A stretch of DNA of 64,000 nt from Centroberyx gerrardi (lineage: Eukaryota; Chordata; Actinopteri; Beryciformes; Berycidae): contig NC_136005.1 of NCBI RefSeq assembly GCF_048128805.1, positions 17,882,260 to 17,946,259 on the forward strand, read 5' to 3'. Positions 40,401 to 49,400 of this stretch are shown here, piece by piece. The notes below the pieces were generated by a model. That model ran no database searches. It had not been told where the DNA came from and saw only the letters and a list, made by a program, of their open reading frames with translations. How positions within the stretch are numbered: position 1 is the first letter of the stretch; each line of letters starts with the position of its first letter. The translations under genes were made by a program, and so were the position numbers.

Positions 40401-43400
40401 GATCAGTTTGTGTACAAGCTGGCTGATCAGATATTTGCCTACTACAAGATCCTAGCAGGAAGGTAGGTACAATATTGTCACATTACAGGTCCTGCTACAA
40501 AGGTACATGGTATGCAGGACATTATGTTGTCATGGTTGCGTCTGTATGTCTGTGCCTCTAGACACATTCTTGTGAACACAATAGCTCAAAGACAGTACAT
40601 GATAGAAATGTCATACTGACACTGATCTGGTTAGACTTTGAAGCACCTTGCTACTTAAATTTGCATATTGAGGAAAAACTGATTTTCTTGAAACTACTAA
40701 AACTCCTTAAAGCTTTGAGATATAGAGTTCATATTAATACGGCCCAAGACAAGTATGTTGACATAGAAATATTTGCTAATGAATGCATTAATTAGCTTAA
40801 TCAATTACCTAATTTGCGTAACTGGTTATGTTTAATACATCATGGTGATCATGGCGGGACATTAGGCAGCTCAAGTTATTAGTATTATTGTGGCTGCTGG
40901 ATGATGAAATGCACATCTATGTCACGAGGAATTGGAAGAAAATGATGATGCATAATGTTATGGAAAGAATCTGTAAAGGAACTGGATTCTTCTCTCTTGC
41001 TTCGATTCCCTCAGTCTGCTCCTTGACAAACGATTGAGAGCCGACTGCAAGAACCAAGGGGCCAACATCCCGTGGCCCGCCTCCAACCGCTACGAGACTC
41101 TGCTGAAGCAACGCCATGTCCAGGTATTCCAGTCATGCTTCCTCACCTGTATGAGCCCTCCTCGTTAGGAATTCATGCTGCGTCTGCCTGTCTAACTGAT
41201 CTAACTGATTGTGAACCTCAGCTCCTGGGCCGCTCCATTGATCTGAACAGGCTCATCACTCAGAGGGTGTCGGCTGCACTCTACAAGTCTCTGGAGCTGG
41301 CCATCAATCGCTTTGAGAGTGAGGACCTCACCTCAATCATGGTATGTACATTTTCAGATTTTTCCTTATTATCTCAGTAAATAACATCTTTTATATCTCT
41401 GGTGAGTGTTTGTGTTTGCCATCTGTATGTGTGTGTTTCTGGGTGCAGTCATGTGAGGGTTGTTTTGTTGTTGTTTTTTTGTGAGATTTTTTATTGACTT
41501 AAATCTGTCCTTGGATAGATGTGAGAGTGGGAACAGTGTGTTTGTGTACAATTCTTGATCATTTCCACTGTCCGGTTCCAGGAACTGGAAGGCCTTCTGG
41601 ATATCAACCGCATGACCCACAAGCTCCTCAGTAAGTTCCTGACTCTGGACAGCATGGACGCCATGTTCCGCGAAGCCAACCACAACGTGTCGGCCCCCTA
41701 CGGCAGGATAACGCTCCATGTCTTCTGGGAGCTCAACTATGACTTCTTGCCCAACTACTGCTACAATGGCTCCACCAACAGGTGGGTTAGTCTGGTTCAC
41801 TGTCTGAGTCACTTTCCAGGAATCAGCTAACTTAACACTCCGCCTCTAGCTGTGTTAATTGTCTGATTGTACTAACTGTGGAGTTTGAATGCACTGGTAG
41901 TTAATTACTTGGCTAATAAATTCTAATGCCAACATTTGATTAAAGGAGATTATTTCTCAAAACATGAGTCCTAGCTAGCATGCTGCGATCATGATTAATG
42001 GTCAGATGGCAGTTTTGTTAATCATGAATTCACATGCTGGCAAACAGGGTATTGGCAGTTTTCAGCTTATAAATTACCTGCTTAGGATCAGCTTAACTCA
42101 GTGAGAATGAAAATGAAAAGTGACTGTCCACTTTTCCTTTACATCTATTTTTTTTATACTCTTTGGTGTATAAGAACCAGTGGCAGTTGCATAAAGATAG
42201 GCATAGACTTAGACTTAAATCTTCAGCCAGACTTACTATAGAAATGTATATGCATAAAAATAGCTCGCTAGTAGCTAACTTAATACCGACTTGCATAGTT
42301 GAAAACCCTTGTCTGCCCTTAATGTTAGCATTTGGGTGATCTAATAGAAACAATAACTAAAGCATGGCATACAGTTTTGGCCCTGGTCATTTAGAGGTGG
42401 CCAAGAGGAGACTGACTTCCTGAATAATTCCTCTTTGGGACTTGGTAGCACAGTGGAAAAAGAGCTGGAACCCTGGAACAAAGTTCAAATGTCAGGTTTG
42501 GCACACAGTGGAAGAGGAGCTAATAAAGCTCCCTGTTAGATGTATAATCTATTGGGATACATTGGGGGTCAGATCTCTGAATGCACCAGACTGCTGTACT
42601 TCACATACAAGGGATCTAGCAGAGGAGAAAGCTTATGATCTGTGGATGAAAGGGAGGCGGTTTATCTGTTGTATAAGACACACAAATGTTTGATGTTTTA
42701 TATTTGGTTTGGCCATCTTTTATGTATGCCATAAACTCAGTTGTATTTTTAAGCATATAGCAGTTTCATTGCTCAAACACAATACTGCTGCAGGGATATT
42801 TCCAGCAGGAGTGGGAGCGGTAACCCATATGATAATTTTTTTGGTCTTAACTGCTTTAAAAGCCTCTCACTATCTCCAATTAATTTGCGTTATATCTTGA
42901 TGTTGCATCATGGCTAATTTCAGCCATTACTCATGATGACATTAGTAGCAATACACGATTAAAGGATCTCCATCTGTGTGTTCAGGTTTGTGCGCACCGT
43001 CCTGCCCTTCTCTCAGGAGTTCCAGAGGGACAAGCCGCCCAACGCACAGCCCCAGTATTTGTATGGGTCAAAGGTCTGTAGACTTTTCTTTATCATTACC
43101 CACAGAGAAAGCATAGTACACTCGTCCATATGTTTGACAGCGCAAGACATATTTGTTCTTGAACTTTATTTTATTGTATTCCATGACTGAAGGATTTTTA
43201 TTCATTTCTGACAATTGGTCTGCATGGCTTCACTGCCAGTGTGTGACCGCTCTAGAGTCACATGTGTTGTCGCCAAACATTCACTGCATGTTAGGAGTAA
43301 ACATCTATACATCTAAAAAGCGGAAAACTGTCATTACGGGAAACAGTGTGTGAAATCTTTAAAAACAAGGATTGATGATGGTCGTGGGCAAAACCGACAT

Positions 43401-46400: not shown

Positions 46401-49400
46401 CATGCCAGTCTTTTTTTGCCTGGGGTATCGGTCCAGAGTGTCCCGTGGTTCTGCTACCCCTCGGTCATGTTCGCATCTGTCCCACCGTCATGGTATTAAG
46501 TTCTCCGTCAACAACTGCTGCTGTGTAGGCTTTCGATGTCAGAAGAGTGAACCGGGGATCGCTTTGTCCTTGTCTCCTACGCTACTGCCACACTAGTGGG
46601 AGCACGGCTGGATTATAGCAGCAGCAGCTTCAACTCTCAACTGTGAGGGAAGGGAGGGGAGGGAGGGACCTGTGATCTCCTGCAGTGGAAAGTGAATATT
46701 GGAAAATAACTATGATGCGCTTTGTCGAAACGGTGTTTGATTTCCAAATTCATACGGCTTATTAATTATTTGTAAATTATTAAAAAGGTCATTGTAAACT
46801 GACTGCTCTGATATTTCTTTCTGTTCTGCTCCCCATGTTTGATGTTTTTCATTTAATTTCCCAAACGTAAAAGGTGGTTTCGCCCTTTGGATGTTAATAT
46901 TTTTAGTGACTCAGCCTTACTACTATTCACCCACAGGAGCTGAATTCATTGCTCCCCTTGAGAAACCATCCGCTGTAATCATGATGGAGACTAGAACATA
47001 CTATTGAGCACCTGCTTTAATAGAAAAAATAATCAGTTTTTCCAGTAGACGATCATTCCCCTAGTTTTTCTTTCAGATGCTCATCCCCGCCCCTTGACGC
47101 ATTACGGATGACAGACATATACAAGGTTTACTCAAGTGATTAAGTTCAATCTAAGAATAACGTCTCTTGTGTTCACTGTCTCCCTGTGCCTGTAGGCCTT
47201 GAACCTGGCGTACAGCAGCATATTTGGCTTCTACAGGAACTTCCTGGGCCCCCCACACATCAAGGCCATGTGCAGGCTGCTGGGCTATCAGGGCATCGCT
47301 GTGGTGATGGAGGAGCTGCTGAAGGTCGTCAAAAGCTTGGTGAGGAGGGCGGTGGGCTTCAGGGACGGTGGGTGGGTGGAGGGGCGGGCTGCATCATTTC
47401 AGGAGGAGAGCAAGAACTTTGTGCTGCTGCGGAATAGAGAAAGTCATTGGGAGGAGAGGTTAAAATGGACTGCTTTCTCTGTTAGCAATGAATGAGACTG
47501 ATGTAGTTCATAATGGAGTTAGTTTGTAGTTAAGTTCCGTTCCTCATCTTTTTCCCCTTTAGCTTTCCACTGATGATGTTGATATAACAATGTTAACTGC
47601 AGGTTAATTTTCAGACCTCTTCTTCTGTTGCACAGCTCCAGGGCACCATAATGCAGTATGTGAAGACCCTGATGGAGGTGATGCCGAAGATCTGCCGACT
47701 TCCCCGCCACGAGTATGGCTCCCCAGGTAGGTGAAGATGTGGAGTCATTACATATTGGAAGATCTGTGTAATGGTCAGTTGGCCCAGTGCAAGAACCATG
47801 ATGCACTAATATGATTTTTTTTAAATATGCAGAAGAGAAAATTCTGGCACAAAACGGGTGTGTTCAAGGTTAAAATTGACCAAATAAAATGTATCTTATA
47901 CTGATTAAACCTCTTTTCTAAAACCATAACTTGTATAATTTTTTTTATAAATGTTCAGCCATAATTACAGTTTCCTAAGAGAATGTTGCCATTAATCTAT
48001 TTTAATCTCATTCGACCCAAAATGTGTTTTCCCTCAGTCTCTGCTAACTGCAGTAAAATGATCAATTTGAGCTCATGATTTGATTTGCCTTTGACTATGA
48101 CATTATTATTACACACAAATATTATTATTATTAATTTTCATCTCTTATCCAACGTTAATCTTTAATTCATAAATAATCGCCTTGTACAACAACCAGGCAG
48201 ATTACAGCTGAGAAAGAAATAGGCCACTAAAGAAAGTGGCCGTCGGATGCTGTGAATCAGGAGGTAATCTGCCAGTTAAAAAAAACAAGCTGTGCTACCA
48301 TAGAGGGATGCAAATTGAAAGCTCTGTCTGGAGCTTTCAAATATGGGGAGATCTGGGCATGCTGTTACTAAAATTAAGCCCTGTGTGGACAATTGCTACA
48401 GATAAGACCATGTGGCATCAATTCTCCATCAACTAGTACAACATGTTAGATTCATCTCATGTTGTTTTCTCATATGCACTTATGAAGGGAAAAATGCATG
48501 AGGACCATGCTATCAATCACACTCCGAGTAGCCTGGTTTTACAGGCACTTGAGTGTATGTTTGAGATCTATGATTAGTGGTGCTGCCACATCAGCGGTGA
48601 AAATGGCTGGCAAGTGGCAACATGCACATATTACTGTGTAGAGTATACCTACTGCTGCGCTAGGTGCGAGAGCTATTTATATATGTGACAGATATTGAAT
48701 AAGTTGGAAGATGAGATAGAAAGGTGATAAATGGGCTTCAATCTCCTTCCTGTTTAGGTATCCTGGAGTTCTTTCACCACCAGCTGAAGGACATTGTGGA
48801 GTACGCTGAGCTCAAGACCGTGTGCTTCCAGAACCTGAGGGAAGTGGGCAACGCCATGCTCTTCTGTCTGCTGAGCGAGCAGAGCCTGGTACGGCCTCAG
48901 CACCACCTTGTTCAGATACTACATGTAGATCGTTCTAACAAATAACAGCATCAATGTAACAAGCTCTGGTGTCTGCATTGCTGTGGAACTTTAATTTCAG
49001 TGAATTGTAGAAGTTAAAAGTGTACAAGTTACTGTTATGTTACTCAGTCATCATGTATAAAATACTGAAGTTAATTTTATAGTTTATCAGTGCCATCTTC
49101 AGTCAAAGACTGATATCACAGCCATGGCACAACCACAGACTGGTTGTACCCATATACTGTAAAAAAAAAAAAAAAAAGGTTGTACTCCAGTCTAATACTA
49201 ATACTAATACAAACTATGACAGATGTGTTCTTACTAAGGGAATTAGCTCTGATGTTTTATTCAGGATGCAAGTCAAATGTGCTCTCACACCTCTGTATGC
49301 ACATTCAGACATGCCATTGTTTTGTCTTTTGCCCTCTTAGTCCCAGGAGGAAGTCTGTGATTTGCTGCATGCTGCACCATTCCAAAACATTCTTCCCAGA

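Follow-up and report, generated by a model that had tools for sequence, protein, structure and literature searches.

A gene of the FNDC9 family lies antisense within cyfip1 of the fish Centroberyx gerrardi, a position suggesting an old CYFIP-FNDC9 nested pair

Human FNDC9 lies within CYFIP2, and a 64,000-nucleotide stretch of the Centroberyx gerrardi genome (contig NC_136005.1, positions 17,882,260 to 17,946,259; hereafter the window) raises the question of how a gene of the same family came to be nested in the paralogous host, cyfip1. The initial annotation of the window had placed such a guest antisense within cyfip1 intron 22, and this placement was upheld when the host was rebuilt, the guest being carried by the minus strand (Table 1). 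The two species hold the guest in opposite host paralogues, cyfip1 in the fish and CYFIP2 in human, and no guest was detected in fish cyfip2. The explanation that we consider probable is that the feature is an ordinary antisense fndc9 gene and that the CYFIP-FNDC9 pair is older than the duplication of its hosts, the guest having been lost reciprocally.

The earlier description of a complete FNDC9-type gene of 211 residues was borne out. The frame opens at the first ATG past an in-frame stop, and the best Pfam match of its product is fn3 (residues 4 to 81, E 3.1e-5, 24.5 bits), accompanied in the PDB by FN3-type matches that are all weak (6 at E ≤ 10, the strongest with E 0.0066). In a two-sequence comparison, 58 of 137 positions (42%) were identical to human FNDC9 over the first 136 residues (E 3e-35), with the stretches PNWNS, SF.HEE, and YFLC and the sequon N-I-S at residue 7 common to both; the human protein, here and in all other fish/human alignments of the guest, is represented by a working copy rather than by a database record. 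The Smith-Waterman score of the pair was 280, compared with at most 60 across 500 shuffles. The fish gene and human FNDC9 might instead be unrelated FN3-membrane genes that landed by chance in paralogous hosts, since FN3 is very common (of 1225 candidates in the genome, 150 were scored, and all of these matched it) and the 2 introns would be adjacent rather than identical if the printed human intron number holds. We give this very little credence in view of the identity to the working copy of the human protein and the shuffled scores, and because a chance choice of the same host family is itself very improbable: By length, a random insertion would fall into cyfip1 introns 22 and 23 with a probability of about 6e-6 per event, which makes 2 independent nestings in CYFIP paralogues very unlikely, even in neighboring introns.

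The guest protein has a strong hydrophobic stretch at about residues 110 to 136, as does the human protein (working copy); its highest hydropathy window lies at residue 118 (mean 2.43), and the first 20 residues average 0.37. Hydropathy predicts for the product one membrane helix, C-terminal to FN3, and no signal peptide. A single-sequence AlphaFold model contains a helix at residues 99 to 136, with a predicted local distance difference test (pLDDT) score of 94 to 95 across residues 111 to 130, preceded by low-confidence strands. These comparisons, made at the level of sequence, confirm the feature as an FNDC9-family protein-coding gene with an FN3 domain and 1 membrane helix. Its product would be a small single-pass type III surface protein (N-out, unprocessed), without a cleaved signal peptide, in which an N-terminal, extracellular FN3 domain would be followed by the helix at about residues 110 to 136 and by a tail inside the cell.

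The gene would be transcribed antisense out of cyfip1 intron 22 from a promoter of its own near 46.4 to 46.7 kb, and the transcript would comprise 1 noncoding leader exon and 1 exon with the entire, intronless coding sequence. The leader exon, which the initial annotation had called likely, is plausible as a prediction: It is supported by the donor after 46373, at 10.4 bits the strongest minus-strand donor of the intron (scored with working values for the splice-site weights), and by a local rise in G+C and CpG, whereas the possible acceptors, 44462 and 44457, are moderate (7.1 and 6.5 bits, with the best 14 of the intron at 7.2 to 10.1). A polyadenylation signal of the gene's own had also been claimed; an AATAAA is indeed present at 43605, about 100 bases beyond the fndc9 stop, but proves little, as AATAAA or ATTAAA occurs 10 times on the minus strand of the intron.

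All 29 introns of the rebuilt host gene are bounded by GT-AG, and the one that holds the guest is the longest among them. The only PDB match of the host at E ≤ 0.001 was CYFIP1 (3p8c; 2721 bits, residues 1 to 1252); because the PDB had no competing CYFIP2 chain, the host was compared with working copies of both human proteins, with 1161 of 1253 residues identical to CYFIP1 (92.7%) and 1088 of 1253 to CYFIP2 (86.8%). The human 15q11.2 BP1-BP2 block has the order TUBGCP5-CYFIP1-NIPA2-NIPA1, and the fish host is likewise flanked by gamma-tubulin-complex and NIPA genes, which we take from this gene order to be tubgcp5, nipa2, and nipa1. We know of no FNDC9 guest in this block in mammals. A cyfip2 identity of the host was ruled out by the CYFIP1 identity, these neighbors, and the presence of a separate cyfip2 elsewhere in the assembly, and sequence and setting both point to cyfip1.

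The assembly containing the window (779 Mb, 278 contigs) was searched with the guest protein. Among 5 matches at E ≤ 1, one was the gene itself (E 4e-143), and the other 4 lay at E 0.042 to 0.127; this own-genome search detected no second clear FNDC9, the next best match being that at E 0.042, and hence the fish has one detectable FNDC9 gene, inside cyfip1. The cyfip2 gene lies on a separate contig (C16) and was rebuilt completely, with 29 coding exons and 1252 residues. It is identical to fish cyfip1 at 1084 of 1251 aligned positions, to the working copy of human CYFIP2 at 1233 of 1253 (98.4%), and to that of CYFIP1 at 87.1%. Its upstream neighbors comprise med7 (165 bits) together with 2 frames, one of tyrosine-kinase type (51.5 bits) and one of PH type that scores under its cut-off; we interpret these 2 frames as itk, and human CYFIP2 likewise has MED7 and ITK beside it. 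At the position of the guest intron, cyfip2 has an intron of 196 bp, followed by one of 160 bp. A tblastn search of the cyfip2 locus (best E 0.40) detected no guest, nor did a two-sequence profile run on 3822 frames from the window, the cyfip2 locus, and 60 kb of its flanks; an FNDC9 relic in cyfip2 was rejected on both searches, and one in these flanks on the profile search. A match at E 0.0084 in L028 was dismissed as fortuitous, since its 38 residues are similar to the C-terminal tail and lie outside the FN3 and membrane portions. As expected of a viral and a prokaryote collection, respectively, viral_contigs contained no pattern match, and none of the 24 pattern matches in genome_contigs was a relative. 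The statement that mammals lost this copy while the fish kept it accordingly describes half of the pattern: The fish does have the guest in cyfip1, but is itself without a detectable guest in cyfip2.

Fish cyfip1 and cyfip2 also differ in intron layout. Three cyfip1 junctions (c.900, c.1110, and c.1359) have no exact counterpart in cyfip2; we judge c.900 to be an alignment offset, c.1359 to be displaced by 27 bases in cyfip2, and the c.1110 intron to be truly absent there. About 17 kb downstream of cyfip2 (L028 3753 to 4406, minus strand), a frame resembles preproinsulin by eye.

The opposite-host pattern suggests great age for the nested pair, and human FNDC9 and the fish gene may have arisen as duplicates instead of being one and the same gene. 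In the human arrangement (5q33), the guest belongs to the same family (human sequence from the working copy) with the same architecture and lies antisense in a CYFIP gene, toward the 3′ third of the host; the host, however, is CYFIP2 rather than cyfip1, and the human intron, as printed, reads as one exon farther downstream. Reciprocal, or divergent, loss of duplicates is known after whole-genome duplication, and the present case resembles it in that each lineage retains a different duplicate; it differs in that the guest is lost or kept within retained hosts, both of which survive as markers. From this pattern, we infer the age of the pair and the reciprocal loss. It is reasonably likely that FNDC9 lay antisense in the 3′ third of CYFIP before the vertebrate genome duplications, with reciprocal loss thereafter, which would make human FNDC9 and fish fndc9 ohnologues that are named like orthologues. 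The CYFIP-FNDC9 pair would have been in place ahead of the CYFIP1/CYFIP2 duplication, and later guest loss would have left the fish with the cyfip1 copy and humans with the CYFIP2 copy.

The main rival is a later transfer between hosts, in which a single FNDC9, originally in CYFIP2 (or CYFIP1), switched in one lineage to the other CYFIP gene through retroposition or ectopic recombination and the source was lost, making orthologues of the fish gene and human FNDC9. The single detectable fish copy and the printed human intron number, off by one, would fit such a move, and retroposition would be consistent with a coding exon free of introns. The mammalian coding exon is intronless too, and so the intronlessness of the fish gene is no evidence for a move. 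The buffalo FNDC9 gene is listed with 2 exons and 227 residues (PMC8615036). A leader exon and intron upstream, as predicted for the fish gene, would speak against a plain retrocopy, as does the small chance, given above, of a random landing in cyfip1 introns 22 and 23. We regard a transfer as unlikely, and an ancient pair with reciprocal guest loss remains the explanation that we favor.

Several observations weigh against this explanation. The fn3 score falls half a bit short of the curated cut-off of 25, and the AlphaFold model is poor overall, with a mean pLDDT of 51.8. When the 738-base stretch holding the frame was shuffled by single bases 1000 times, at least 246 open codons arose in 3 shuffles and at least 200 in 44, so that frame length alone is weaker evidence. 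Composition-preserving shuffles that yield an equally long frame 3 times in 1000 would suit a nonworking gene, whether a decaying relic or a frame left open by chance where G+C is high; the frame is nevertheless intact from start to stop, with conserved homology, and its coding part (65% G+C) has a coding-like third-position G+C of 0.88 (0.76 in cyfip1) amid flanking intron parts of 36% to 39% G+C, and we hold such a gene to be highly improbable. As for the ancient pair, reciprocal loss requires 2 losses, and the evolutionary comparison consists of one fish genome, working copies of human sequences, and a printed human position.

That position, as printed, points to the neighboring intron. The nesting of human FNDC9 antisense in CYFIP2, on which the initial annotation had relied, is supported by PMC10532311, the one paper found to combine FNDC9 with CYFIP2, in which FNDC9 is placed in "CYFIP2 intron 23" (NM_001037333) and, in Table 2, FNDC9 c.336C>T is given as genomic 156770209 G>A, which implies the antisense strand. 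The same source equates hg19 chr5:156766037 with CYFIP2 c.2386-28, 28 bases ahead of "exon 21," and another places CYFIP2 Arg87 in "Exon 4" (PMC7017979), which corresponds to coding exon 3. The 4 human CYFIP2 junctions available from publications (c.207, c.388, c.2386, and c.3446) match fish cyfip1 junctions 207, 388, 2389, and 3449, provided that the latter 2 are shifted by one residue, and a human exon skip that shortens a product from 399 to 199 bp removes 200 bp, the length of fish cyfip1 exon 21. The "Exon 4" of Arg87 and the "exon 21" of c.2386 agree if CYFIP2 has 1 noncoding and 29 coding exons, as in fish cyfip2, because CYFIP2, like its fish counterpart, then has one exon fewer than cyfip1 between these points. 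Intron 23 then follows the 144-bp exon, and the human guest would sit in the next intron downstream relative to the guest of the fish, a further point against the favored explanation; the result is the same if exon 21 and intron 23 are counted over 30 coding exons, and the introns are homologous only if the intron and exon numbers of the paper come from different counts. In the most consistent numbering, which for the human intron depends on a single printed number (PMC10532311), the human guest would occupy the neighboring, not the homologous, intron, so that the same intron in both hosts is unproven.

The 1253-residue working copy of CYFIP2 has a DQ pair at residues 699 and 700 and Cys at 697. 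The CYFIP2 residue numbering in PMC7615923 agrees with it at these positions. A table of PMC11799376, which gives p.Asp724His and other CYFIP2 variants under NM_001037333, seems to mix isoform numberings.

The initial annotation knew of no account of a cyfip1-nested FNDC9 paralogue, and none appeared in the literature passages that we searched by term, outside Ensembl and NCBI annotation; the one paper found to contain both FNDC9 and CYFIP1 is a gene-expression study of mouse colon. If the reading of an ancient pair is correct, the nested arrangement, its strand and rough location included, predates the split of CYFIP1 from CYFIP2 and has survived since, and the 2 lineages have resolved it oppositely. 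Data on fish fndc9 might in that case bear on a paralogue of human FNDC9, an example being its expression in the pipefish, in which fndc9 is reported as a brain marker (PMC11030337). The pair would also serve as a marker for the keeping and loss of guests inside retained hosts, because the hosts persist and date the event.

Table 1. Positions of the fndc9 guest, its cyfip1 host, and flanking genes in the window
Feature	Position	Strand	Details
fndc9 coding sequence	43704..44339	−	211 codons plus stop, intronless; FN3 at about residues 3–94, membrane helix at about 110–136, then tail
Presumed 5′ untranslated region of the coding exon	44340..44462	−	Acceptor 44462 or 44457; inferred
Presumed leader exon and promoter region	46373..46690	−	Donor after 46373 (CTG|GTAAGT); predicted from sequence
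Candidate fndc9 polyadenylation signal AATAAA	43600..43605	−	Others at 43202 and 43175
cyfip1	28488..50989	+	30 coding exons, 1253 residues
cyfip1 intron 22, hosting fndc9	43074..47195	+	Phase 0, after c.2676, 4122 bp
cyfip1 coding exon 22	42986..43073	+	88 bp, last residues ..YLYGSK
cyfip1 coding exon 23	47196..47339	+	144 bp, first residues ALNLAYSS..
Gamma-tubulin-complex gene, one frame (presumably tubgcp5)	14103..14459	+	GCP_C_terminal 26.3 bits, cut-off 25.8
NIPA gene adjoining cyfip1 (presumably nipa2)	51999..54402	−	PF05653 in 2 frames, 214 and 49.5 bits; exons not joined
Second NIPA gene (presumably nipa1)	56470..59488	−	PF05653 in 2 frames, 125.6 and 21.7 bits (cut-off 26.2, not reached by the second frame); exons not joined

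Elsewhere in the window, a 445-codon open frame on the minus strand (5029 to 6363) matches Sulfotransfer_1 at 51.7 bits and appears by eye to be of the carbohydrate-sulfotransferase type.

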